26,476 nucleotides of DNA, taken from Chrysochromulina tobinii (lineage: Eukaryota; Haptophyta; Prymnesiales; Chrysochromulinaceae). The first letter of the stretch is position 1. Every line of letters begins with the position of its first letter. Positions 10,496 to 26,476 of the stretch are shown piece by piece. The position numbers and the translations under genes were made by a program. The stretch lies in NCBI GenBank assembly GCA_001275005.1, contig JWZX01003224.1:1-26476 (forward strand), given 5' to 3'. The notes under the pieces were generated by a model. It made no database searches. It had not been told where the DNA came from and saw only the letters and a program-made list of their open reading frames with translations.

Positions 10496-11840
10496 GCTCT
10501 CTCCCGGCGGGGACGTTGAGGACCTCTTGCAAGGTGGCACAGAGGTGGACGCAATCTCTCTGTGCGGAACTGAGATCGACGTTGTCTCACCGAATGGGCC
10601 TGAAGTCATGATCGACAAAGAGCAAGCGGCGGCTCCTGCGGTGGGCGCTGTTACGGGCACGCCGCAGAAGAGCACTGTGCGTGTGGTGCCCTGGCTGCCG
10701 CGTCAGCTCTGGGAATCTGATGGCGCGTATGAGAGCCGTGTGCAGTTCGACGAGGCCCGCTTTGGGCCTGCGCCGCCACAAAGTGAGTCAGAGGGTATGC
10801 GCCGTGCTGCCCGGTCGATGGCGAAGGCCAATGCCTCTGTGCTCGGCTGCAGCTACCCGGCGGAAGACGAGGTTGCTTTCTCGTCAACGCCAATCAAGCG
10901 ACCACGGGCGGCAATCGAGACTGACTTAGAGGAGGACGAGGAGATCATTGCCATGTCGCTGGAAGCGCTCAAGGCGAAGCTCGAGCAGGTCCAGGCGGAG
11001 GCTAAGATTGCCATCGCAAGCATCGGTGCGCACGACCTTGCACAAGATGAAGTTGAAGACGGCGATGGTGAAGACGGCAAGGATGATCGCGTTCGTGTTC
11101 GTGCTGCCATCGATCTTTTGCTAGACGGAGAAGGCGATCGTCCAGCTTTTTCTGTTGATCTCTCTCAAGACGGAGAAGGCAAAGACGGAGGAGGCGAAGA
11201 CGGAGAAGGCGAAGGTGATCGTCGGCGTGCGTTGGTTGTTGATCTTGCGAAAGACGGAGAAGACGGTAGCGAGGGCGGCGAGGGCAATGGCGAACATCCC
11301 GACGGAGATGAGGATGGTGATGACAGCAGGTATGGCAGCTTCCATCCAAACGTCGCCCAGAGCGCGGCACTGGCCGTCATGGAGGCAGGCAAGAGCGTCG
11401 TCGTCATCGGTGCCGCCGGGACGGGTAAGACAGCACTGATCCTCGGCAAGGTGAAGGATCGTCTGCGGCGCTCGAGTGGCAAGGTGCTGTTGACGGGCCC
11501 GTACAACACCCACGTGGACAAGCTGCGCACTGACGTTAGCAGCGATCCAGAGCTAGCAGAAGCCGTAGCAGCTCGTCGGATTATCTTCAAGACGACGGCC
11601 GCGGCATTCTCGTTCCCAACGCGCGGGATAGCTAAGCCCCTAGAGCCGGGACACACACGGGCACACGGACACACAGACGAACCTCACAACCATCCCAACC
11701 CACCAACGCACCCGAGCGACCGCGAGACGACCGAATCAGCGGCCGACACCGCCGACTCAACGGCCGCAGCCCCGGAGCCGGTACGAATGCAATTGTACGA
11801 ATGGCGACCGCAAGATATCTGCGGTCGTATACACATGTGA
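10491..11840 (+). pseudogene. Truncated P-loop ATPase / SF1 helicase-like protein
   Basis: The frame opens right at the end of the ubiquitin-like frame. Its first ATG is at 10608, giving about 410 residues. It has a Lys/Glu helix (about 115-145), an acidic Asp/Gly/Glu repeat region, then SFHPNVAQSAALAVMEAGKS followed by VVVIGAAGTGKTALI, a clear Walker A (GAAGTGKT) in the Q-motif/motif I layout of Pif1-like and other SF1 helicases. A DE(x)(x) motif II and motifs III-VI are absent. After RGIAKPLEP (about 11632) the sequence becomes a His/Pro/Thr-rich tail unlike a helicase. It is probably a 5' fragment of an element-encoded helicase, unless an intron removes the tail. Confidence 0.5.
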
Positions 11841-12642: not shown

Positions 12643-12884
12643 TGCGATCGCTCCGATCGCTTTTGTACCATTGTAGGAGCACCACTCTCTCCAAACGCTT
12701 AGTCCTATCGTGAGACTGGTGCGATCGCGTGGCGCCGTGAGCCGGGAATGGCTTGGCTTGGCGGAGTCTGAAGCAACAGGCCTACTAAGAGGCCCCCTAC
12801 GGAAGGCCAAAGAATGTGGTGCTTTTGACACTTCTTCGAAAGATCGCGGATATTTCGCGCAAACCGCGGCCTCTGAGCGCTTCA
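12643..12884. other. Spacer between Mpv17-like and dioxygenase genes
   Basis: A 242-base spacer. The dioxygenase frame is open for 69 bases upstream of its first ATG at 12885 but begins with GTG there. No promoter motif or RNA gene is recognised. Confidence 0.5.
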
Positions 12885-14351
12885 ATGCTCGCCGCGCTCG
12901 CCTTCAGCGTGGCATCGTCTTCGGCGGCGTTGGCCGTGCAGTCCGTTGCACTCAAGCGGCCGGTTGCGATTAGCGCAGCTGCCGTCGAGAACGAGGGCAA
13001 GACGCTCGCGATTCACTTCAACGACGGTCTCAAGTGCCGCTTCCATTCTCTGTGGCTTCGTGATGCATGCCGCGATGACGCGCACGTGGCGAAATACGCT
13101 GGTGAGCGCCTGCTCACCGCCACGCCCGTCGGCCCGTCTGGTGTGATTCCCAGCCGGCTGCGCGCGTCGGCGGCTGAGGTGCACGATGGCGAGGAGCTGC
13201 GCATCCACTGGGACGAGGAATCGATGTGCAAGCATGAGCTTGCAGTGGACCCGCCGACCGTCTCCATGTTCCCGGCGGCCTTTCTGCGCGCGTACGCCGA
13301 GGTCGTGGCTGAACGCATTATCGAGCCCGAGCAGGCAGACGCGGCGCAGCCCTCCGTTGGCGATGCGCTCAACGACGAGCTCGCGTGGCTTCGGCCGTAC
13401 TCTGCTTTCCAGAATGCGCCAGCGCCCAGACCCGAGGAGATGTGCCTGTGGAAGAACGACGGCGGCCTCGAGCTGCCCGTGTACGACCATGACAATGTCC
13501 TCGACGTCGAGTCGACGGCCAACCTGCGCATGCTTCAAGACGTGGTGAGGTACGGAGCTGTAATCATCGACGGATGCGCCAACCCGGGCGTCGAAGGACT
13601 GCACAACTTTGCTGACAAGGCGCTGGGCGGGCTGCAAAAAGACCCGACGCGCCCCAAGGCGCACTGGAAGATCGTCAAGAAGGACGGTGCCACGTCTGTC
13701 TCGTACGACCACCTCAAGCGCCTCAACCAGCACACAGACTCGTCCATACCCCCGCATGGCCTGCCCGCGCTCTGCCTTCTTTTCCACTATGCCGAAGGCA
13801 CCGGCACCAATACGCTCACTGACGGCTTCGCCGCCGCCGCCCAGCTGCGCGCCGAAAACCCCTTGGGCTATGCGCTCCTCGCAAAGTATGGCTACGATGG
13901 CGAGCGCGACTTCGTGGCCTCGCGCGCCGACTCGACGCAGCAGTTCAACCGGGGTCTGGTGGTGTCCACGCAGGTCCCAATGCTGCAGCTCGACGATGCA
14001 GGCGAGCTCAAGCGCATCCAGTACAACGAGGTCTTCCGCATGCCGCTCTCATTACCGTACGACATCTTCCCCAGGTGGTACGCCGCCTTCGACCGCTTCG
14101 TCGAGCTGCTCCACTCGAACGACTTCGAGAGGCAGATCCCGATGAGCAAGGGGCGCTTCATCCTGATGCAAAACTGGCGCGTGCTGCACGGCCGCGCGGG
14201 CGGGCGCGCCTCGGCCAACCGAGTGCTTGTCGGCGGCACGATCACACGCGAGGCGTTCTACTCGCAGGCGCGCCGTCTCACGCGCGAACGGCGCGCCTTT
14301 GCCGACGTGGCGCAGGAGGAGGAGCTCGTCTTACGCCGACGCGCTGACTGA
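12885..14351 (+). CDS. Gamma-butyrobetaine / trimethyllysine dioxygenase-like enzyme
   Basis: A 488-residue Fe(II)/2-oxoglutarate oxygenase of the family that hydroxylates trimethyllysine or gamma-butyrobetaine in carnitine synthesis. It has a GBBH-type N-terminal domain (HFNDGLKCRFHSLWLRDACR) followed by the TauD-like catalytic domain. The HxD iron motif is in NQHTDSS (His about residue 283); the distal His is in WRVLHGRAG (about 435); the likely 2-oxoglutarate Arg is in the following NRVLVGGTITREAF stretch. In human BBOX1 the N-terminal domain binds zinc through three Cys and one His; here the equivalent loop keeps only one Cys, so that site may be lost. The start MLAALAFSVASSSAALAV could be a mitochondrial or secretory leader. 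Which of the two substrates it uses cannot be told. Its stop codon lies in a tandem duplication. Confidence 0.85.
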   Translation: MLAALAFSVASSSAALAVQSVALKRPVAISAAAVENEGKTLAIHFNDGLKCRFHSLWLRDACRDDAHVAKYAGERLLTATPVGPSGVIPSRLRASAAEVHDGEELRIHWDEESMCKHELAVDPPTVSMFPAAFLRAYAEVVAERIIEPEQADAAQPSVGDALNDELAWLRPYSAFQNAPAPRPEEMCLWKNDGGLELPVYDHDNVLDVESTANLRMLQDVVRYGAVIIDGCANPGVEGLHNFADKALGGLQKDPTRPKAHWKIVKKDGATSVSYDHLKRLNQHTDSSIPPHGLPALCLLFHYAEGTGTNTLTDGFAAAAQLRAENPLGYALLAKYGYDGERDFVASRADSTQQFNRGLVVSTQVPMLQLDDAGELKRIQYNEVFRMPLSLPYDIFPRWYAAFDRFVELLHSNDFERQIPMSKGRFILMQNWRVLHGRAGGRASANRVLVGGTITREAFYSQARRLTRERRAFADVAQEEELVLRRRAD

Positions 14352-14724: not shown

Positions 14725-17700
14725 ATGGGCCGCAAGCGCTGCAAAATCACAGCGAAGGACATAGCTCAGTACTCGTCTCTAGGTGCCTTCATCGCTGAGC
14801 TGATCAAAAACGTCTCCGACAGCACTGGCTCCGAGTTGCAAGAGGACGCAGCAACTGCACTGCGCTCTCTTGCACAGCAGTCACATCATGAGCACGTGGA
14901 CGCCATATTTGCAGCGGGCGCGGTGCGGCCGCTCATCGCGCTGCTTCGCACATCCGCCTCGGCCAATGCGCAGGCCTCCGCTGCGGGCGCACTTGCCGCG
15001 CTCGCACACGAAAAGCCAGAGCACCAGGCGGCCATCGTCGCGGGCGGCGCAATCGCACCACTCGTGCGCATACTGAGCGCAGGCGGCACCAAGGCGCAGG
15101 AGGAGGCCGCCTCCGCGCTCGCGTCGCTCACCTCGGACAGTCTCGTCGAGGCGCAGCGCGACGTGATGCGCCAAGGCGCCGTGCATCCGCTCGTCGTACT
15201 GCTTGCGGGTGGGAGCGCAGCTACACAGGCCTATGCCGCGCAGGCCCTCGCCAACATGGCGCGCTGCACGAACGCCGACGCACAGACGGTCGTCGCCAAG
15301 GCGGGTGCCATCCCCCCTCTGCTTCGGCTGCTGAGCGACGCCAGGGCGCAAACGCCTGCGGCCGGCTGCCTCGCCATGCTCGTGAGCAACAACTCTGGCG
15401 TGCAGCAGCAGGTAGCGTCCGCGGGCGGCATCCCGCCGTTGCTCGCGCTCCTCAACGGGCGCAACATCGAGGCGCAGGTGCAGGCGGCCGCCGCCCTCTC
15501 GGAGCTGGCCAAGGAGAACCCCGACATCCAGGCGCAAATCGTGAGAGCAGGCGGCATCGGCCCCCTGCTTGCGCTCTCCGGCTCGTTCCGCAGCACGGCG
15601 GCGATGGCGCTCGGCACGGCGGCCCTCGCTCGGCTGGCCCACCAGAATCCGAGCAATCAAGACGCGATCGCTCGTCAGGGCGGCATCAAGGCCCTCGTCG
15701 ACAACCTCGGCTCGCCCCACGGCAGTGAAGACCCGCGCGTGCTCGCGAACGCGGCCACGGCTTTGATGGAGCTCTGCCGCTCCAACCATGCCAACCAGGC
15801 CGCCGTCGCGAACCACACGGAGGCGATCTCGCTGCTCGCGTCGCTGGTCAAGAGCAGCATGCATATGAGCGTCAAGGCCGAGTGCGCCGGGGCCCTTTGG
15901 TCTCTCTCGCAGGACCCGAAGATCAAGACGATGATCGCTCGCGCCTTCGCCATCCCGCCGCTCGTCGCGCTGCTCAGCTCGACCGATCAGCGCGCGTGTG
16001 AGCAAGCCTCTGATGACCTCTGATGACCTCTGATGACCTCTGATGGCCTCTGATGGTGCTCAGCTCGATCAAGCAGCGCGCGTGTATTAAATTTGGCACT
16101 GCAACCCCTCCCCCGGATGGATTTGGCAGGTGAACATGCCTCGTTCGCGCTCGCGTCGATTGCACTCCAGAATGGCGACAACATGGTGCAAATCACCGGG
16201 ATGCTCGTCGAGGTGCTCGTGGATGAGGCCGAGAAGGCCGCGCACGTGCGCGCCGTGCGTGCGCTGGAGGCTCTCGTGCAGCAGAATCCAACGTTCCACG
16301 ACCGGATCGCCAAGGCAGGCCCGATGAATGCGCTCGTCGAGCTTCTGAAGCATGGGATCGCACCGGCGAAAGATTATGCGCTCTGGTCGCTCTCTCTCTC
16401 GATCACGCGCGCTGACCAGCCTGTGATCGCGGAGGCGGGGGGCGTGCTGCCTCTCATCGCACAGCTCGCGGACCAGCGAGTCCTCAACCAAGACGCAGGC
16501 GAGTCATCTATGTCCTCTGATGACCGCTGACGACCTCTAATGACCGCTGATGACCTCTAATGACCTCTGATGACCTCGAATGACCTCTGATGACCTCTGA
16601 TGACCTCTAATGACCTCTGATGACCTCTGATGACCTCTGATGACCTCTGATGACCTCTGATGACCAGCGAGCAGGTGAGTCATCTCGCTCTGATTGCGAG
16701 TCATTGATTGCGAGTGATGGCCACTTCCATGACGTGTGATGACGATCGATGGGTCATGAATGGGGCGATGGCGATGGATGGACACTGGGTGTCTATTGGG
16801 TGTCACACCCCTGTCGATTGATGGCGATTGATGGCGATTGATGGCGATTGATGGCGATTGATGGCGAGTCCGAGCTCGTCCTTTCCCCCGAGTGCACAAG
16901 TGGCGGCTGCTCTGATGACCTCTGATGAGCTCTAATGAGCTCTGATGAACCTCTGATGACCTCTGATGAGCTCGTCCTTTCCCCCCGAGAGCACAGGCGG
17001 CGGCTGCTCTGGCCAAGCTCGCGCATGAGAACAAGGAGACCCAGGACCACATCGTGCGGTGCAGCGGCGTCAAGCCGCTCATCAAGTTGCTCGAGATGGG
17101 CCGAGGTCTCTTGCCATCGCCGTTCAGCTTTGCCCGGGTAGTCTCCATGCAGGTGGCCAAGAGCTTACCGGGTGCATCTGCGGTGGAGGACGTCGCCGAG
17201 GGTGGCAGCTTTCGACGCAGCAGAGTCGGCCACTGGAGAGCCTTGCAGGCCGACCTCGCGGAGGCGACGGCTCAATTGGACGAAGATCCAAACGTCAAGT
17301 ACCGCTCTGCACGCCAAAACGCCGCATTCGCTCTGGCGAGCCTCTCTGACGAACCCGCGGTTCGTCACATGGATGTTCGAAGTCGACGGAACCTCGAAAT
17401 GTGCCCAAGAGCACGTTCGCTGATTGCCGCTGATGACCCATGATTGCCTCATCATCAGGCACGTGACGAGATCGTTGGGGCGGGCGGCATCCGCCCTCTG
17501 GTCCTCGCGCTCGATGACGATAATCATCAGACGAAGCGGTTTGCGCCCACGGCCCTCGCACACGCGCCACACGCCACTTCATGGCCCACGACGGCGCTCT
17601 CTGATTGCCGCTGATGATGACACGTTTGAGTGTGCCCCTCATCAGGTTTGCGGCCACGGCCCTCGCACGCCTCTCGAAGGCGCACGAGGCGACGCAATCG

Positions 17701-20700
17701 GCCGTGGCCGAGGCAGGTGCCGTCGTGCCTCTCGTCTCCCTCGAACATCGCGCATGCAAGTGCTCACCACGGCGCCTCCTCGCCATGCTCTCCCCACAGG
17801 TGCCATCGTGCCTCTCGTCTCTCTCCTCGACGGGAAAGAGGGGCCGGAGGCGCAGGAGGCGGCCGCGGGCGCGTTGCTGTGCCTGGCGGATCACGAAGGC
17901 GCTCGGCTGGCGATCACGGAGGCCGATGGGATCGGGTGGCTCGTGATGCTCCTCGGCTGCGAGAACCCACGCGCTCGACAGCACGCCGAGGGTGCTCTCG
18001 TGCGCCTTTCGATCTCCGTCTCGAACCGCGTGCTGATCATTAAGAAGCTCGTCGACATGCTGCAAGACGCAGGCACTTCCGCGCAAGAGCAGGCGGCTGC
18101 CGCACTCGCCAAGCTCGCACGCGAGTCGGCCGACAATCGCAAGTCGATCGTGGACGCGAACGGCATCGTGCCGCTTCTCGAGCTGCTGGACTCGACGTCG
18201 ATGAAGGCGAAGGAGAACGCGGCGGCTGCAATCACGCAGCTCGTGCGCAAGGGCGTCGAGAGCAGTTCGCAACAAGAGAAGCTCTCCAAAGATAACCAGT
18301 CGGTCATTGCGAAGGCGGGCGGCATCGAAAAGCTCGTGGGCGTGCTGATCGGCTTGCAGGTGATTGCCCTGATTGCGTCGGATTGCATCAGATTGCAAGT
18401 GAGAGAGTGGCGTGGTCGTCTGCCAGGGGACCCCTCGCGCAGGCGATTGCACCTGATAGAATCTGATTGCATCTGATTGCATCTGATTGCATCGAACCGC
18501 ATGCGCGCCTGTCAGGGGACCGGCCTCCAAGGCAAGGAGCTCGCCACCGTGCAGCTGTGCAGGCTGACGGCGGAGGCCATCAAGGAGATGGCGTTTGGGA
18601 ATGCCAAGATCCAGACGGCAGTCGCCGAGTCGGGTGGCATCGCGCCGCTCGTCTCCATGCTCAACTCGAGCGATGCCGAGATGCAGGCCAATGCCGCGGG
18701 TGCGCTCGCCAACCTCGCACGCAACCACCAGATCAACCAGTCGGCCATCGCGAAGACGGGCGCGGTCGGCCCGCTGTGCACGCTCGTGCGTGAAGGTACG
18801 TTGATTGCCACTGATGACCTGCCTGGCATGCAAGTGCTCACCACGGCGCGGTCGGCCCGCTGTGCACGCTCGTGCGAGAAGGTAGTGCGGAGACGAAGGA
18901 CGAGTCGGCGATGGCGATCTGGGCCATCTCGACCGACAACGCACCCAACAAGGACACGATCGCCAAGCTGGGTGGCATCGACCCGCTCATCGGGCTGCTC
19001 CAGAACGGATCCTCACAAAAGTCGCTCGATTGCGTCGCGGGCGCCCTCACGTCCCTCGCGCACAAGCACCTGGACAACCGCGACTACATTTCCAAACGGC
19101 TCGTCAACCTGCTCGGCTCGTCGTCCGTGCGCTCCGCTGACAAGGCTGTGCGCGTGCTCACGACGTGCAAGGCGTTCACTCATGGCTCGTCACCCAACCA
19201 GATGGCCATCAGCAAGGCCGGGGGCATCTCGCCACTCATTACTTGGCTCGCGTCGACACACATCACCGCGTGCGCCCAGGCGGCCATGGCTGTCCTCTCA
19301 ATGATCCTTCATAACACGACCACCCAGTCCCAGTTCGCTCGATCCGACGGCATCCCGCCGCTCATCAACTTGGTCAAGAAGGCCTCCCCAGACCGTCGAA
19401 CCGTCCACGCCGAGCTCGCACAAGAGTATGCGTGCCGCGCGCTCTTCCATCTCGCGTCACAGGCCGACAACCGTGCGCTCATTGTCGACTCGCACGTGAT
19501 GCAGCCTCTCGTGCGCATGCTCACGGCCGAGACTGAATGTGCTCCGGAGCTCGCGGCTATGGTTCTCGTACGTCTCTCCCGCGGCAATGTGGACGTTTGT
19601 AACGACTGTGCGAGTAAGGGCGCCATCGTACCCCTGGTGAAGCTCGTCTCTTCGGGGCTGCACGGCGCGCAGCAGCAAGCCGCCGCCACGCTCGCTGAGA
19701 TTGCCCTCGTCTCTCAGAACCGCGACGCCATCGCCAATGCAGGCGCGATCGAGCCGCTCATTCGCTTAATGGACTCGTCCACCGTCGGCTCGCCCGAGAC
19801 GGCGGCGCGAGTGCTCGCCCACCTGGCGGTAGAGGACGACAAGATTGATGACTCGGGGAGCCTCGTTGCTCGAAAGGCCAAGGCAGCGGCAGCGGCCAAG
19901 GCGGCGGCAGCGGCGGCAGCAACGGCGGTGGCGGCGGGCGGCAAACCAGCCGGCGCGCCGAGCGCCGCCGTGAGCGTCGCCGAGGCATCGGATGCTGAGA
20001 CGTTGGCACGCGAGCTCACGGGTGCGTCGGAGCGGCGCGCGCAGATCCACGTCCTCGGCGGCGTGTCCCGACTCGTGGCCATGCTCGACGGATCGCTCAT
20101 GATTACAGTCAGCCAGAGCACGCTACGAGTGCAGGCAGAGCAGGCGGAGCAGGCCAGGGCGGCCATGCAGGCCAAGGAGGCGGCGGACGCCGACGCCGGC
20201 GCCGAGCCGCTGTCATCCTCGGATGCTCTCGAGGGGGATCTCAAAACAAGCAAGGTCAGGCGGACCTCCGCCGAAGTGATAGTCGAGGCTAGCGAGCTGG
20301 AAGCGTTGCTCAGGGGCACAGCATACAAGCCGAAGTCGACGCACAAGGTGTGGTCGATAGCTCCCAATCTCATCGACGTCGACGAGAACGGGCGAGCTCG
20401 GGAGCAGATCCAAATCGCCACGGCCAATAAGATGGCGATGCAGGAGCAGTCGGCCGCCGCGCTCGCAGAGCTCGCGAAGGTGCGTTCATTGATGTCCCTG
20501 ATGACCCTCGATTACGTTGATTGCCACTGATCCGCCGTGCTGGCGGGTCTCGCGAAGGGCAACGGCGAGCTGCAGGATGCGATCATCTTGGCGGGGGGAG
20601 TGCCTCCCCTGCTGGCCTTTATCCGCATCGGCTCGTCAGTGGGGCAGGAACATGCGGGGCGCGCCATCTGGCATCTATGTGCGGACATTGAGAATCAGAA

Positions 20701-23700
20701 GACGATCGTCAGGTGGGTCGCAGCACACTTCATCCTCTGCTGTTCGAGGACTGATTGAGTGCTAATTGAGTGCCTCCGAGTGCCTCTGACTGCCTCTGCG
20801 TGCGGCGTGATTGCAGGTGCGGCACGATCACCGAGCTAGTGATGCTGGTGCGGGCAGGCTCGCCCAAGGCCCAGGAGGTGGCCGCCGCGGGCCTCTCCGA
20901 GCTCGCGCGCGGCGGCGTCGCCGAGCTGCTCCGGCAGCAAGAGCACAAGGTTCATCAAGAGGAGCTCCAGATGCAGGAGGAGGAGAAGGCGCGGCGCTTG
21001 CAACTCAGGAAGGGAGCTGTCTTCTCGACCGCTGGGGCCCTCACTGGAGACCTCCCCTCAGCCGCCGATGGCTCGATGACGAACCCCGCGCAAGGCGACC
21101 CAGGTGCTCCGCAGAGCGCATCTTCCGAGGATGTCCTCGAGGACGGTAGCGCCAATCGACTCCAAGCGATCGCGGATGCGGGTGGGATCGCGCCGCTCGT
21201 CAACCTACTGGGAGTGGGAGCCACGACGCGTGCGCGAGAGAATGCGGCGGGGGCGCTCTGGCATTTGGCGCTGGACGCTTCGAATCAGATCGCCATCGCA
21301 CGCGCCAATGGCATCATGCCACTCGTGATGCTCCTTGAGCACGAGGCGAGTGCTCTCTGATGGCTCCTATTTGCTCCTCATTGCTTCCGCTGATAGCCCC
21401 TGAGTTACCCCTGATCCCCCAAGATCGCCCCTATGCGTGTCCCTGATTGCCGCCGAGTGCCACCGAGTGACTTTCTGATTTGTCTGGGCTCCCGCGCGCA
21501 CCGCAACTGCGCCGCATACGCACCGCAGGACATTTATCGGGCAGAGGGGACTTTGATGGACGATGGCATCACGCCACGCGCGCACCAGCACGCGTCGGAT
21601 GCGCTGCAACGGCTCGCGGATGGTAACCCAGAGAACCAGGCGGTGATTGCGAAGCATGCAGTTTCGCTGCTGAGCAACCCGAGCGCCGGCGCGCAGAGGC
21701 GTGCCGCCAAGACCCTGCAGACGCTTGGTGCACGCAACCTCGGCTCTCCGGTGCTCATCGTCAATGCTGGCGCGATCTCGCCTCTGGTCAACCTGCTGGC
21801 GCTCGGGATCACTGCGGTCAAGGAAGAGGCGGCGAGCGCGCTCGCGACACTCTCACTCAACTCGCCCTCCACACAGCTCGCGATCAGCACGGGCATCATC
21901 ACGCTCCTCGGCACAGGCAACGCCGAGACACAGGAGCACGTCACCGGGCTGCTGCTTACACTCTCCCAGGACAACGACAATCGCATGGCAATCAGCAAGG
22001 CGGGCGCCATCCCGCGGCTTGTGACGCAGCTGCGCACGATGGCCTCTCCCGCGGGCGCGCGCTCTCAGGAGCTCGCCGCCGCCGTCCTCGCGCGCCTCTC
22101 GGGTGACTCCGATAAGAACGTGAGCGCGATTGCCACCGCCGGCGGCGTGCGCTCCCTCGTGCCCCTCCTCGCGTCAAGCTCAGCGGCGGCGCAGGCGCAC
22201 GCGGCCGCCTGCCTGTCGGACCTCTGCCGCACATCGCTGCGCAACAAGAACGCGATCCTAGCCGAGAACGGCATCCAGATGCTCGTGACGCTGCTGAGCA
22301 ACCCGCTGAGCCACTCGAACACTAAGGCCGAGGCGGCCGGCGCTCTGCTCGCCCTCTCGTCCGGCCAACCCGAGAACCAAAAGGCAATCGCCGACGCCGG
22401 CGCCATCAAGCCACTCGTGGCGCTCCTGGGCGATGACGATAACTACGCTCGCAGGAAGGCGGCGGGGGCGATCGCGGCAATCGGCTACCGCAACACGGCC
22501 AACCAAGATGCCGTCGATAAGTTCAACGGCATCGAGAAGCTGATCGCGCTGCTCGGGCCGACGACGAGGCCGAGGGAGTCGTCGGTTGGACGGAACCGCT
22601 TGGTGACGCGCGACGTCCCCCTCCCCCCCGATACCGAGGGAGCCGGTGGTTCGAGGGAGCCGGTGGGGCGAAGCCGCTTGATGTCAACCGATGTAGTGGG
22701 GGAGCTGGTGGGGCGAAGCCGCTTGGTGTCAACCGATGTCGTGGGGGAGCCGGTGGGGCGAGGCCGCTTGATGTCAACCGATGTCGTGGGGGAGCCGGTG
22801 GGGCGAAGCCGCTTGGTGACTCGCGACGTCGTGGGAAGTACGACGTTGGCCCTTCCGGAGGAGGGAGCATCAACGGGCATCGCTCCCAGTGCGGTGGCGC
22901 CGGTGCAGCTCTCAGCAGCGGCAGCTGGTCCGACCGCAGCTGTTCCGGTCGATGACGAGGTCCGCGCCGAGGCGGCGGCGGCGCTCGCTGTGCTCGCACG
23001 CAAGAATGCCAAGATTCAGGACAAGGTCGCGAGCGTGGGCGGCATCGAGCCGCTCGTGGCACTGCTACAGGGAGACCATGTGTCAGAGAGGGCGAAGGAG
23101 GAGGTACGCTGATTGCCACTGATGACCTGCCTTGCATGTAAGTGCTCATCGCAGCGCCCTCGACCCACTCGTGTGCGCACCAGGCGGCCGCCGCCCTCTG
23201 GTCGCTCGCGAAGCAGCACTACGCTAACCAGATCAAAGTGGCCGAGGCGGGCGGCATCGCGCCTCTCGCGGCGGTGATCGGGCTCAATAGCATACGTGCA
23301 CAGGAGCAGGCGGCGGGCGCGCTGGCCGCGCTCGCGCTCGACAACCCGCAGAATGTGGTGGCGATCGCGGGGCTGCTCGTGTCGTTGGTCATCGGTGTGA
23401 TGGACACGGACGGTGATGGGAAGGTCTCGATGGCCGAGCTCGCGTCGCGAGATCGCGCTCCGAAAGCGGCCGCGGCGCGAGCCGAGCGCTCGCTGGAGGA
23501 GAAGCAGGCCTCTGCCAAGGCAGCTCGCGCCATCTCGTACCTCGCACGCGCCCACCCGGCCAACCAGGCGGCCATCGCGGCGGCGGGTGGCGTTGGGCTT
23601 CTCGTCTCGCTGCTCGATGCGGAGGAGGGCGGCGTCCTCAAGCGCGCGGCGCCGAGCACAGCCCCCGAACGAACGACGCCTGAACGTGGCACGAGGGAGC

Positions 23701-26476
23701 CTCAGAAAGAGCCTGAGGCCGCAGGTACGTTCAGCCATGAGCAGCACCACAAGGAGCTCGCGCGTGCAAGTGATCACCACGGCGCCCGATCGCCCTTCTC
23801 TCTACTTCTCTCCCCACAGGTACGTTCAGCCATGAGCCGCACCACGAGGAGCTCGCGATGGTACAAAAGGATCTCTCCTCCGCGATCTGGCACATGACCA
23901 AGAATAGCGAGCAGAACCAGATCGCCGCGAAGGAGGCGGGCGCGATCATGCCGCTGATCGCGCTGCTCGAAGGGAACCCGATCGTCCGGCCGGACGTCGG
24001 GGGAGCTTTGTGGTCTCTCGCAGCCCACGAGGCCAACCAGGTGGCGACCTCATTGCGTCTGATTACGTCTTGCTGCGCGTCTGATTGCATCTGATTGCAT
24101 CTGGACGTCTGATTGCGTCAGGTGGCGATCGCCGAGAGCGGCGGCATCGTGCCGCTCGTCAACCTGCTGCGAGCGGGCGGGCCCGAGGTACAGCCCGAGG
24201 TGCGCAAGGCGGCGCAGGAGACAGCCGCCGGAGCATTGCATGCGCTCGCCAGGGCGCCCGCCAACCGCGTGTCCATCGCCGACGCTGGAGGCATCCCTCT
24301 GCTCGTGACCCTCTTCGACATCGCGGACGGGTCAGACGAGAGCAAGGAGCAGGTGATGACCACTGATGACTTCTGATGGCCCTTGATTGCCTCCGGGGTG
24401 GCCTCTCATTGCGAGGGTTCGACGTGTGGTTGGAGCAGGCTGCTGGCGCGCTCCTCACGCTCGCACTGCACAACGTGCCCAACCAGATCGCGATCTCGAC
24501 GGAGCTCATCGAGATGCTGCGAGGTTACCCGAGCACCTGCTCTGCCAAGGCGGCCGAGCACGTGACCCAGCTGTTGGGGAGCCTCGCGCAGGACGACGAG
24601 AACCGCGGCGTGATTGCCAAGGCGGGCGGCGTGCCCGAGCTCGCGCGCCAGCTCGCGCTCGGCTCCGAGCCGGCGATGGCGTCGGCCGCCTCGGGCCTCG
24701 CGTTGCTCGCTCTCGGTTCGCGCGCGACGGTGACGCAGGAGCTCGTCAAGCTGCTCGCGTCCGAAGACGAGGCCGTCCGCCAGCGAGCCTCCTCGGCGTT
24801 GCGAGACGTGGCGGCCGGTGAGAAGATGAACAAGGCTCAACGACAGGGGAGTAAGTCCAACTCGGGCGGAGGGGGTGGCTGTGCACCGCTAGTCCGATTG
24901 CTTCAAGATGGTCTCAAGGATGGCAACGTCGAGGCCCAGGAGTACGCGCATCGATGGCCTCTGATGGCCTCTGATGGCCTCTGATGGCCTCTGATGGCCT
25001 CTGATGGCCTCTGATGGCCTCTGAATGCCTCTGATGGCCTCTGATGGCCTCTGATGGCCTCTGATGGCGACCCTCATCAAGCGTGCCCAGGAGCACGCGT
25101 TCTGGTCGCTCTCGAACATCGCGCATGCAAGTGCTCACCACGGCGCCTCCTCGCCATGCTCTCCCCACAGGTACGCGCTCTGGTCGCTCTCGAACGTCGC
25201 CGAGTCGGTCGCGTCTTGGCGCTCGGGCGATCGCCGAGGCGATCGTGTCGGCGGGCGTGATCCAGTCGCTGATCCGATCGCTCGTCGAAGGGCGCTTGAG
25301 CGAGGTCGCCCAGGAGCACGCGGCGCGGGTGCTCTCGGGCCTCGTGCCCCTCGGCACCAATGCGCAGGTGCGTTCATGACCTCGGATGGCCTCGGATGAC
25401 CTCGGATGACCTCTGATGACCTCTAATGACCTCTGATGGCCTCAAATGGTGATGACACCTGATGACCTCTGATGGCCTCTGATGACCTGATGACCTCTGA
25501 TGACCTTTGATGAAATGGCGTCTGATGACACCTGATGACACCTGATGGCATCTGATGGTCACTGATTGGGTCTCGTCCCTTTGGCTCCAATTGCGCAGGC
25601 CATCAAGGAAGGCGGTGGGATCGAACCCCTGTGCCAGCTTCTCCGCCGCGGGAACCCGAGCGCCAAGGTACGCGCCGCGACGACGCTGGGGGAGCTCGCG
25701 CATGAAAGTGCTCACCACGGCGCCCACCACGCCATTCTCTCCCCACAGGTACGCGCCGCGACGACGCTGGGGGAGCTCGCGCTGCGCGCAGGCGCGGCGC
25801 TCGACGTTGCGAAAGCGGGTGCAATCTCCGCCTTTGTTTCGTGGCTCGTCGACCCAAACCTAGGGCAGCCCGAGGTGGCGGCCGCTGCCCTCTCGGACAT
25901 CGCGCTCGACAACCCGGACACGCAGGCGCAGATTGCCGAGGAGGGCGCCATCGAGCCGCTCGTCGCGATGATCGCCCAAGGCACGCGCGCCAATGCGCTG
26001 TTCACGCGGCCCCTCGCGGGCGCCGTCGTGGAAGCCGTCGTTGAAGCCGTCGTGGGCGCAGGCACAGCGCACCCTGCCAGCTTACCGGTACCGATACCGG
26101 CTCCGGCACTGGCATCTGAACCGGTGGAACCGGTGCCCCCCTTGTTACCCCCCTTGTTACCCCCCTTGGCCCTCACTACCAGCGTCGTCGCGAGCGTCGT
26201 CGTGAGCGCTGCCGGCGTTGGTGCGGAGGAGATCGGCGTACCGGTACTCACTGGAGCCTCTCCCATCGAAGCGGGCGCTGTGGTGGGCGTCATGGCGGGC
26301 GCTGTGGCGGGCATTGATGAGGCGGGCGTCGTGGCGGGCGCTGTGGCGGGCATCGACGAGTCGGGCGTCGAGACGGGCGCTGTGGCGGGCGCGGAGCTTC
26401 CAACGCCCCGGCTGGCGACGTCGCAGACCGAGAGCTCGATGCGCTCGCCACAGCGCTCGCCACGTGCCGGTCAGCC
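14725..26476 (+). CDS. Giant armadillo-repeat protein (at least 18 exons, 3' truncated by window)
   Basis: A long solenoid of dozens of ~42-residue armadillo repeats of the type AGGIPPLVALL...AAGALANLA, most like Vac8/ARO-type scaffolds. The likely role is protein binding; the partner is unknown. Inferred exons: 14725-15997, 16130-16498, 16992-17359, 17459-17538, 17646-17716, 17800-18359, 18516-18795, 18882-20479, 20558-20712, 20817-21345, 21529-23103, 23184-23724, 23820-24040, 24122-24352, 24439-24941, 25171-25367, 25599-25667, 25749-beyond 26476. These give about 3,115 codons with frame kept at every junction except for one apparent indel in exon 16 (25202-25245). Exon 8 has an Ala-rich non-repeat linker. 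Exon 11 has a 45-bp coding minisatellite, exon 12 an EF-hand loop, and exon 18 a Pro/Val/Gly-rich tail. Start: ATG before MGRKRCKITAKDIAQYSSLG. Splice calls rest on repeat continuity, without transcripts. Confidence 0.85.
15998..16129 (+). other. ARM intron 1 (minisatellite, exon-end copy)
   Basis: Donor GTGAGCAAG, acceptor GGCAG. Splicing joins DQRAC to EHASFALASIA. It contains five 10-bp units (CTCTGATGAC type). After these comes a degenerate copy (16057-16085) of the last 29 bases of exon 1 (15971-15999). The bases at the donor (GTGAGCAAGCCTC) also resemble the start of exon 2 (GTGAACATGCCTC). Confidence 0.7.
16499..16991 (+). other. ARM intron 2 (GC donor, three repeat arrays)
   Basis: The longest intron (493 nt). 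The donor appears to be GC (CAG|GCGAGTCATCT). A GT version of the same stretch (CAG|GTGAGTCATCT) occurs inside the intron at 16672-16685. It holds an array of TGATGACCTC units (16511-16662), five GATTGATGGC units (about 16813-16865) and a second TGATGA array (16915-16970). A 43-base segment ending in an exon-3-like start (16872-16914) is repeated at the true intron end (16968-17011). Acceptor CCGAGAG is chosen because it keeps frame. Confidence 0.55.
17360..17458 (+). other. ARM intron 3
   Basis: Donor GTTCGTC, acceptor ATCATCAG. Splicing joins LSDEPA to ARDEIVGAGGIRPL. It contains GATTGCCGCTGATGACCC, a relative of the motif in introns 4, 7, 8 and 11. Flank duplication is only weakly visible. 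Confidence 0.6.
17539..17645 (+). other. ARM intron 4 with duplicated exon-5 start
   Basis: The first bases of the intron (GTTTGCGCCCACGGCC...) are a near copy of the start of exon 5 (GTTTGCGGCCACGGCC...), about 22 of 23 bases. Splicing from the first GT to the AG before the second copy gives TKRFAATALARL, a perfect armadillo helix. The core contains CTGATTGCCGCTGATGATG. Confidence 0.7.
17717..17799 (+). other. ARM intron 5, introner-like module copy A
   Basis: The intron begins with a near copy of the exon-6 start (GTGCCGTCGTGCCTCTCG against GTGCCATCGTGCCTCTCG). It ends with a module running from CTCGAACATCGCGCATGC through CAAGTGCTCACCACGGCG to CTCTCCCCACAG. The last 60 bases (17740-17799) are identical to 25111-25170 in intron 15. 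Splicing gives EAGAIVPLVSLLDG. Length 83 nt, so retention would shift the frame. Confidence 0.8.
18360..18515 (+). other. ARM intron 6
   Basis: Donor GTGATTGCC, acceptor CTGTCAG, joining VLIGLQ to GTGLQGKELA. It is rich in TCTGATTGCA units (three in a row near 18461-18494). A stretch CTGCCAGGGGACC inside it echoes the true acceptor and exon start CTGTCAGGGGACC. Confidence 0.65.
18796..18881 (+). other. ARM intron 7 between 40-bp exon duplications, module copy B
   Basis: A 40-base segment at the end of exon 7 (18759-18798) is repeated at 18845-18884 with one mismatch. The 46 bases between hold GTACGTTGATTGCCACTG and GGCATGCAAGTGCTCACC. Splicing from GT of the first copy to AG of the second removes the whole duplication and joins LVREG to SAETKDESAM. 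The first 43 bases match intron 11 with three substitutions. Confidence 0.8.
20480..20557 (+). other. ARM intron 8
   Basis: The exon-8 end CTCGCGAAGG is duplicated at the intron end (20550-20559), and the acceptor AG is the duplicated AAG. Splicing gives ELAKGNGELQDAI. The core includes TACGTTGATTGCCACTGAT, the motif shared with introns 7 and 11. Confidence 0.65.
20713..20816 (+). other. ARM intron 9
   Basis: Donor GTGGGTCG, acceptor ATTGCAG; CAGGTG occurs at both junctions. Splicing joins QKTIVR to CGTITELVML. The body carries GAGTGCCTCTGACTGCCTC-type units. Confidence 0.65.
21346..21528 (+). other. ARM intron 10 (possible GC donor)
   Basis: Phase and repeat continuity favour donor GAG|GCGAGTGC and acceptor CACCGCAG, joining LLEHE to DIYRAEGTLMDD. 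The donor hexamer GCGAGT is the same as in intron 2. The body has degenerate CCCCTGATTGCC-type units. The donor choice is less certain than in the shorter introns. Confidence 0.5.
22657..22836 (+). repeat. Coding 45-bp minisatellite in ARM exon 11
   Basis: About four 45-base units encode variants of EPVGRSRLMSTDVVG, with a related half-unit (VGRNRLVTRDV) just upstream at about 22585. The units keep frame and replace a normal armadillo repeat with an Arg/Ser/Thr-rich linker that could hold phosphorylation sites. Copy number may vary between strains. Confidence 0.85.
23104..23183 (+). other. ARM intron 11, module copy C
   Basis: Begins GTACGCTGATTGCCACTG, followed by ATGACCTGCCTTGCATGTAA, matching the first 43 bases of intron 7 apart from three substitutions. 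Ends GTGTGCGCACCAG. Splicing joins RAKEE to AAAALWSLAKQ. No long exon duplication is obvious at this copy. Confidence 0.75.
23403..23438 (+). other. EF-hand calcium-binding loop within ARM exon 12
   Basis: DTDGDGKVSMAE fits the 12-residue EF-hand loop: Asp at positions 1, 3 and 5, Gly at 6, a hydrophobic residue at 8 and Glu at 12. It is flanked by hydrophobic helix-like sequence (LLVSLVIGVM before, LASRDRAPK after). Only one loop was seen; EF-hands usually pair. Confidence 0.75.
23725..23819 (+). other. ARM intron 12 with 38-bp exon duplication, module copy D
   Basis: GTACGTTCAGCCATGAGC... (23725-23762) is repeated at the start of exon 13 (23820-23857), 36 of 38 bases. Between them lies GTGCAAGTGATCACCACGG followed by CTTCTCTCCCCACAG. 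Splicing restores EAAGTFSHEPHHEELAM. Confidence 0.8.
24041..24121 (+). other. ARM intron 13
   Basis: CAGGTGGCGA occurs at both junctions. Splicing joins HEANQ to VAIAESGGIVPL. The body is built of TCTGATTGCA-type units. Confidence 0.7.
24353..24438 (+). other. ARM intron 14
   Basis: GGAGCAGG occurs at both junctions. Splicing joins SDESKEQ to AAGALLTLAL. The body contains GTGATGACCACTGATGAC. Confidence 0.7.
24942..25170 (+). other. ARM intron 15, minisatellite plus degenerate exon copy plus module copy E
   Basis: The donor GTACGCGC is also the start of exon 16 (GTACGCGC at 25171). Splicing gives EAQEYALWSLSNVAE, a perfect repeat. Inside are twelve 10-bp units (CTGATGGCCT, 24951-25070), then a degenerate copy of the same exon preceded by an AG (GAGCACGCGTTCTGGTCG at 25091), then the module identical to that of intron 5. 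Confidence 0.75.
25202..25245 (+). other. Apparent frameshift within ARM exon 16
   Basis: The frame encoding ALWSLSNVAESVAS must change to the frame encoding IVSAGVIQSLIRSLVEG. Both parts are good armadillo sequence. A one-base indel explains it. A 31-nt GT-AG excision (GTCGCGTC...CGCCGAG) would also restore frame but would be unusually short. Confidence 0.6.
25368..25598 (+). other. ARM intron 16 with minisatellite and exon-end copy
   Basis: The exon-16 end (25341-25368, CTCGTGCCCCTCGGCACC...) reappears in degenerate form at the intron end (25572-25599), so the acceptor AG lies in the copy. Splicing joins LVPLGTNAQ to AIKEGGGIEPL. The body is an irregular TGATGACCTC/TGATGGCCTC array. Confidence 0.7.
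25668..25748 (+). other. ARM intron 17 with 34-bp perfect exon duplication, module copy F
   Basis: The first 34 bases (GTACGCGCCGCGACGACG...) are identical to the start of exon 18 (25749-25782). The rest is CATGAAAGTGCTCACCACGG followed by CATTCTCTCCCCACAG. Its length (81) is a multiple of three and it has no in-frame stop, so retention would simply insert 27 residues. Confidence 0.75.
26133..26390 (+). repeat. Low-complexity coding repeats in ARM exon 18
   Basis: Three 12-base units (CCCCCCTTGTTA type, about 26134-26168) encode PPLL repeats. Then a GGCGCTGTGGCGGGC-based repeat encodes GAVAGIDEAGVV/GAVAGIDESGVE. The frame stays open to the window end, so this is a non-armadillo tail or linker. 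Confidence 0.7.

Follow-up and report, generated by a model that had tools for sequence, protein, structure and literature searches.

It has long been asked how genes acquire new introns, and a long armadillo-repeat gene of the haptophyte Chrysochromulina poses the question directly, because several of its introns lie between two copies of exon sequence; at issue is what was inserted and what made the copies. We analyzed the window, a whole contig of 26,476 nucleotides (C2065) that includes this gene, within a 53.15 Mb assembly of 2,253 contigs. Our preferred explanation, to which we assign a probability of roughly 0.6, is that the introns arose when a short mobile fragment of an intron (an introner) was inserted, duplicating the exon at the insertion point.

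A direct-repeat scan of the window recovered, in the same places and with the same identities, the clearest exon duplicates that a sequence-only reading had reported, at introns 17, 7, 12 and 4: 25666-25701 and 25747-25782 are identical at 36/36 positions (34/34 counted from the GT), 18759-18798 and 18845-18884 at 39/40, 23722-23762 and 23817-23857 at 39/41 (36/38 from the GT), and 17538-17561 and 17645-17668 at 23/24. The same scan found further duplicates at 17714/17797 (27/29), 25095/25173 (26/28), 15971/16057 (26/29) and 16885/16982 (27/30); those at introns 1, 2, 14 and 15 are weak, being old or short. As that reading also held, the near-perfect copies of 23-40 bp in the armadillo gene are much longer than ordinary target-site duplications, and they are far above chance. 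Mutual resemblance of armadillo repeats, which the reading had named as the circumstance that could undo its claim, is rejected as the source of the duplicates. In a scan over the loci collected up to that stage, with spacings of 45-399, eight armadillo-paralogue loci (L001-L008, including two overlapping pairs) contributed one of the 60 listed repeats free of the core sequence described below, with 64 core-containing repeats outside that listing. Furthermore, among copies of the core across the genome, an exon duplicate starting right after an AG downstream of the core was present in 89/154, compared with 12/459 mismatched flank pairs (Fisher p ~6e-51).

Within these introns, the similarity to the exon breaks off abruptly and is followed by an insert that is repeated elsewhere in the genome, so that the exon copies enclose a mobile sequence with a 21-24 bp core, GCATGCAAGTGCTCACCACGGCGC. 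A 24-base core pattern, with up to 3 mismatches allowed, had 2,312 matches genome-wide (1,113 + 1,199), and the reversed-pattern control had 0. By direct reading, the core extends from 14 nt before to 9 nt after a branch-point-like A, and it has no stop codon in any forward frame. Its left end is fairly sharp (461 exact 24-mers vs 514 exact 18-mers without GCATGC), as expected of a defined mobile unit more than of random template switching. The two ends, GCATGCAAGT and CTCCCCACAG, form no inverted terminal repeats, since neither is the reverse complement of the other. The introns starting at 17717, 25093 and 25668 share a longer segment, GCATGCAAGTGCTCACCACGGCGCC...CTCTCCCCACAG, with one core change in the 25668 copy; a genome search with this segment gave at least 48 matches, with 40 of 173 candidates scored. 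We read 178 distinct copies of the core on 85 contigs, a non-random sample consisting of best matches and clustered places, and these reveal similar introns at non-homologous places in one genome, the property by which introners are recognized.

These observations bear on the mechanism originally suggested for the locus, in which an AGGT-containing stretch of exon is duplicated in tandem at a proto-splice site to yield an intron. The part of that proposal that stands is recent creation at AG|GT-like sites, and the exon copies on either side of the intron are as it predicts. However, duplication of an exon segment should make the whole intron match the exon, whereas here the copies are separated by a sequence that is repeated genome-wide. 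Tandem exon duplication alone is therefore refuted for the clear cases, and we give it next to no credence in general.

The copies fall into several architectures. In the 3' half-intron (type A), a left duplicate starting from GT is followed by the core, a pyrimidine-rich tract, CCCCACAG, and then the exon again. In the 5' half-intron (type B), the upstream exon ending in AG is followed by GTACGTTGATTGCCACTGATGACCTGCC plus the core and then by a duplicate of the exon end, the AG of which is the predicted 3' splice site; the 5' half pattern has 238 matches genome-wide at up to 3 mismatches, of which 42 places were read, with 18796-18881 as the window example. Complete copies, such as 23104-23183, have both halves and lack a long duplicate. 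Finally, core-only copies (type C) are repeated with duplicates of ~20-40 bp, for example with units of 48 bases (C416, C40) or 60 bases (C343). Duplicates anchored at the AG begin with GT or GC in 77/89 copies and with neither in 12/89; no anchored duplicate was detected in 65 of the 154 copies tested. Among the 77 GT/GC cases, the predicted introns are 63-99 nt long and their remainders modulo three number 23, 23 and 31, so that plain translation cannot account for the class as a whole. Unanchored duplicates with a score of at least 14 were found in 119/178 copies, namely, 80 3'-half, 12 5'-half, 11 core-only and 16 other, under a simple rule that misfiles a few (the tandem 3'-half units C187 and C167, together with two intronic rows of C395). 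The unit length is a multiple of three in 8/11 core-only copies vs 23/80 3'-half copies (p 0.0065); with four doubtful rows removed, the core-only fraction is 6/7, from four contigs and including tandem units that are non-independent. A frame open on both sides was seen for C416. Core-only copies may survive mainly where the reading frame is kept.

Some unrelated inserts, consisting of CTGATTGCC- or CTGATGACC-like units, are flanked by similar exon duplicates (L057, L062, L023, L011 and the window intron at 17539); these examples come from the 60 listed core-free rows, some of which are not introns. The feature is genome-wide and confined neither to the armadillo gene nor to a single insert family. 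The core-bearing insertions are best interpreted as a family of introners, probably accompanied by others in this genome, whose half-introns are made whole by exon duplications of unusual length. In several places, whole intron units, each a duplicate plus an insert, are arranged head to tail at a spacing of ~63-86 bases (C913, C90, C88, C846, C1644 and C2180; loci L015, L059-L061, L011-L012, L117, L125 and L129), as if introns had multiplied in tandem at one site.

Features of the armadillo gene and its predicted introns in the window
Position	Strand	Feature	Basis
14725-26476	+	Host gene, long armadillo-repeat protein, apparently continuing past the contig end	Arm E 1.8e-46 on first exon, 14725-15996
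15998-16129	+	Older intron, duplicate GTGARCAWGCCTC; extra exon copy 15971-15999/16057-16085	11/13 by direct reading; 26/29 in direct-repeat scan; frame check
17539-17645	+	107-nt intron with an unrelated insert that consists of CTGATTGCC-like units and ends in CATCAG; exon duplicate of 23 bp	23/24 duplicate; frame check
17717-17799	+	83-nt intron of the 3' half type, comprising the duplicate (17717-17742) and the insert (17743-17799)	27/29 duplicate; Arm match across junction
18759-18795	+	Left exon duplicate of 5' half-intron insertion, ends AAG	39/40 with 18845-18884; T 37
18796-18844	+	Inserted 5' half-intron, GTACGTTGATTGCC...GCATGCAAGTGCTCACCAC, providing the 5' splice site	Exact match to 5' half pattern
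18845-18881	+	Right exon duplicate inside predicted intron 18796-18881 (86 nt); terminal AAG is the 3' splice site	Eight homologues gapless
23104-23183	+	Complete 80-nt family member with the 5' half, the core and a CAG of its own; no long duplicate	One-mismatch 5' half match; duplicate score 3; frame check
23725-23819	+	3' half-intron insertion, 95 nt: duplicate 23725-23762, insert 23763-23819	36/38 with 23820-23857; direct-repeat scan, frame check
24041-24121	+	81-nt intron built from TGATTGC-like units; insert long (74), duplicate short (7 bp, GTGGCGA)	Direct reading; frame check
24942-25170	+	Probable composite intron with TCTGATGGCC array and a second, nested insertion; likely donor of the 17717 intron	Removal joins armadillo frame
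Within 24942-25170	+	Nested insertion: left duplicate at 25093-25122 and right copy at 25171-25200, flanking the core insert 25123-25170	26/28 duplicate
25668-25701	+	Left exon duplicate, 5' part of the intron, providing the 5' splice site GTACGC	34/34 with 25749-25782
25702-25748	+	3' half-intron insert: the core, which contains a branch-point-like CTCAC, then a tract rich in pyrimidines and CCCCACAG	Core family; predicted intron 25668-25748, 81 nt
25749-25782	+	Right exon duplicate, exon proper	Arm match crosses junction

Denoting the copied exon piece as T and the insert as E, the event converts X-Y to X-T-E-T-Y, where the predicted intron is T+E in the 3' half type and E+T in the 5' half type. 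The insert brings a branch-point-like CTCAC and one splice site, with the duplicated exon providing the other. Judging from the sequences, we consider this anatomy, insertion plus duplication, to be close to certain. T and E were measured in 80 type A and 19 type B cases, leaving out those with E below 28 (3' half) or 30 (5' half), which are mostly tandem units. The median of T was 31 in the 3' half type (n=80; interquartile range, 25-35 bp) and 17 in the 5' half type (n=19; 9-24 bp in 17/19), and the respective medians of E were 48 and 62. The sum, nevertheless, was almost the same, with medians of 79 and 78, and was between 63 and 99 nt in all 99 cases bar one; shuffling T would yield 11.3 cases below 63, and the single exception, with a sum of 48, is the core-only C416 unit. 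Across the range of 9-57 bp, T is variable and is not a short fixed target duplication of 3-9 bp. T and E are anticorrelated (rho -0.67), in part as a measurement artefact, a decayed duplicate being counted as insert, so more weight can be put on the contrast between the half types and on the floor near 63. Combined with the half-introns themselves and with the junction microhomology and same-contig donors described below, the near-constant sum suggests that splicing constraints, and not an enzyme, set the visible duplication length. Probably, a splicing size limit selects long duplicates: splicing would need ~63 nt or more, and the duplicates would look long because only a T that fills the half-intron up to this limit allows the insertion to survive as a neutral intron.

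If the predicted introns are spliced out, the reading frames should be restored, and removal restores most of the frames tested along with several conserved domains, as assessed at the level of sequence. The claim that splicing returns the pre-duplication protein agrees with most of the nine introns, out of the 17 that had been inferred, for which boundaries were set: removal joins an armadillo-like frame in seven, and in the eighth (23725-23819) it joins an open linker frame that continues into armadillo sequence. Just upstream of the ninth, 25093-25170, lies a stop codon, and this intron is better read as nested in the composite intron 24942-25170, the removal of which yields a clean armadillo frame. 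Across the 18796-18881 junction, eight homologous proteins, chosen from 48 found, align without a gap, and one relative (P0032, by eye) runs on through the intron positions at 17539 and 17717 and through one near 18360-18530, the ends of which are not fixed; what the relatives show is an uninterrupted protein, which is not the same as proven intron-free DNA. A nearly identical relative of the first exon (P0001, listed as 100% over 66% of the query) was dropped as splicing evidence since it terminates within unspliced intron 1.

Outside the window, we compared the codon usage frames of the flanks. With 75-base flanks free of other intron motifs, the frames agreed after predicted splicing in 27/33 cases and without splicing in 6/33, with 8 more ambiguous; under the same filter, spliced agreement was 28/35, 26/32 and 26/32 for flank lengths of 48, 60 and 90 bases, respectively. 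In the unfiltered set at 75 bases, agreement was 35/52 spliced and 12/52 unspliced, 17/52 disagreeing after splicing and 25 being ambiguous. The shorter flanks and the filter were adopted because an L022 flank contained a neighboring intron; a first, cruder test with 120-base flanks gave 40/64 spliced vs 15/64 unspliced, with 13 ambiguous. Eight spliced peptides, picked from the 77 as conserved-looking, were compared to Pfam. The matches cross the predicted junction for DSPc (2.4e-24), CRAL_TRIO, gelsolin and two window Arm cases; the ABC_tran match passes it by only about four residues, in the ankyrin peptide (L067) the junction falls at residue 11, which leaves its matches uninformative about the join, and the L086 peptide matched no Pfam family. 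The DSPc and gelsolin peptides also align with solved structures without gaps at the junction. Duplicate plus insert thus resemble a new intron, one that would be excised cleanly.

How the insert is copied is the least certain part of the scheme. E would be copied from existing introns, from the same contig more often than chance, and the copying would occur during repair of staggered breaks or through template switching directed by short matches of a few bases, without a fixed-stagger transposase. We hold this repair or template-switch route tentatively, at slightly less than even odds. Between the exon and the core, left-junction microhomology of at least 2 nt is present in 10/24 non-tandem copies compared to a null of 15% (p 0.0015); this count omits eight of 32 copies in which the duplicate runs into another GCATGC (tandem units), and with these included it is 18/32. 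Some copies have extra bases between the duplicate and the core. The nearest core relative is on the same contig in 9.8 of 134 cases vs 1.46 expected. The clearest case is the 17717 intron, which is identical to the 25093 intron (at 25121) over 52/52 bases; its insert, whose nearest relative is at edit distance 0, combines an identical core with CTCGAACATCGC, the intronic copy of the exon duplicate of the 25093 intron, where the exon reads CTCGAACGTCGC. Given this identity and the presence of CTCGAACATCGC rather than CTCGAACGTCGC, the 17717 intron was most likely copied from the 25093 intron, 7.4 kb away, along with part of the exon duplicate of the donor. That some unrelated inserts have similar duplicates argues against a family-specific integrase and favors host repair or template switching.

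Other routes could produce some of the same scars. SINE/LINE-type retroposons generate variable target duplications, with a precise 3' end and a ragged 5' end, and use an autonomous partner with a common 3' end. Under target-primed retroposition, a short RNA ending in CAG would be reverse-transcribed at a nick by LINE-type machinery, with variable, SINE-like target duplications starting at the nick, and indeed the duplicate lengths vary, the 3' half-introns are precise at the 3' end but ragged at the 5' end, where microhomology and additional bases occur, and the genome contains reverse transcriptase frames (26 matches, 22 over the curated cut-off, including L111). Nevertheless, the 5' half-introns display the opposite geometry, a precise 5' end and a variable 3' end, and relatives on the same contig are more frequent than chance, so we consider this route unlikely, at about the level of a serious outside candidate. 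Two of the reverse transcriptase frames are without stops, Gypsy-like in L110 and LINE-like in L111, by family labels of our own. The two half types, each with one exact intron/exon junction and with a duplicate of the exon adjoining the intact junction, are also what reverse splicing would leave if intron RNA joined a proto-splice site in mRNA and partial cDNAs (the 3' part of the intron with the downstream exon, or the upstream exon with the 5' part) recombined on the exon side and were end-joined on the other, duplicating the exon. The position of the core around the branch-point-like A and complete copies without a long duplicate, such as 23104-23183, agree with this scenario. Yet, core-only copies, which have neither splice boundary, still carry duplicates, and selection alone could impose splice boundaries; overall, we find reverse splicing of such fragments improbable but still a serious rival. 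A slightly less improbable, more speculative variant is that an intron-RNA fragment around the branch point propagates itself: leftovers of splicing or reverse splicing would be copied into exons, the cell would complete the missing half by exon duplication, and splicing size alone would act as the sieve.

A cut-and-paste element whose integrase cuts with a constant long stagger (~35 bp) could explain the interquartile range of the 3' half duplicates and the sharp left end of the core, but it is disfavored by the shorter duplicates of the 5' half type (17/19 at 9-24 bp), by the same feature at some unrelated inserts and by ends that are not inverted repeats, and we regard it as very unlikely. 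A viral vector for the family is not supported either: a viral collection gave one exact 21-mer match, a 3' half-intron copy (L089, 4495-4542) lying at the very end of a contig that by eye resembles phage DNA and is probably chimeric or misfiled. This copy places the family in another metagenome. Horizontal spread of introners is reportedly the subject of a 2025 PNAS paper.

Against this background, the insertion of half-introns completed by exon duplication can be compared with known systems. The introners of Gozashti et al. are likewise many similar introns at unrelated places, in which the target duplication gives one splice site and some families carry only a 3' or only a 5' splice site; in contrast to the 3-9 bp duplications of the earlier families and the 4 bp of the Symbiodinium and Chrysochromulina examples (the Chrysochromulina sp. 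family bears its own 5' splice site), the duplicates here are 9-57 bp and form a large part of the intron, and one core occurs in 5' half, 3' half, complete and core-only copies (PMC9860276). Direct repeats of 3-5 nt flank Amoebophrya introners (PMC7789003), and Micromonas introners have been linked to reverse splicing (PMC3879977). In Daphnia neointrons, for which repair of staggered double-strand breaks was proposed, adjacent exon is similarly repeated directly at the other end of the new intron, but those repeats are 4-12 bp, shorter than ours, and ours surround one highly repeated insert (PMC4202315). The potato RdRp intron gained by tandem genomic duplication shares the combination of duplication and new intron and differs by the repeated insert that lies between the exon copies here (PMC4974935). 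Like Rogers and Bendich, who reported direct repeats averaging 11.1 bp near nuclear spliceosomal splice sites, we take intron-border repeats as insertion scars, although ours are longer, with duplicates of at least 20 bp at 90% identity or higher in 53/72 non-tandem 3'-half cases (PMC11782384). Among the titles and abstract openings searched, with subscription papers and preprints outside the scope, no report of introners with duplications of tens of bases was found.

The genome thus offers many intron-gain events with readable scars, including the insert, the duplicated piece, the origin of the splice site and, in one case, the donor, within one small genome, and half-intron copies offer a fresh view of intron origin. 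Half-introns, near-constant total length, junction microhomology and same-contig donors make the insertion mechanism testable by counting in sister strains. If intron-RNA fragments did propagate themselves, exon duplication joined to a half-intron would be a general route of intron making that several unrelated inserts use in this genome.

Several other features of the window were recorded. No known structured RNA was found in it at gathering thresholds. Upstream of the armadillo gene, 12882-14351 encodes a dioxygenase (trimethyllysine dioxygenase in some relatives) with 98% identity to a metagenome protein and 71% to the best named relative, probably from the haptophyte Scyphosphaera, so that this one gene points to a haptophyte source. 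A 724-residue frame at 8052-10223 matches a chromodomain (Pfam E 2.2e-13) and, on visual inspection, contains tyrosine-recombinase-like motifs; the next frame, 10527-11837, has AAA/helicase matches, all below the cut-off; the two could be a mobile element. Within the armadillo gene, introns at 16510-16680, 24952-25066 and 25370-25550 are full of short tandem units, TCTGATGACC, TCTGATGGCC and CTGATTGC, respectively, each resembling a branch-point motif, and comparable arrays occur in several other fetched loci. Downstream of 25170, the armadillo-like frame shifts within the exon at ~25200-25240, reflecting either a small unrecognised intron or an assembly slip. The gene also contains tandem repeats of 45 bases at 22655-22835 and of 39 bases at 26285-26390, both unit lengths being divisible by three.
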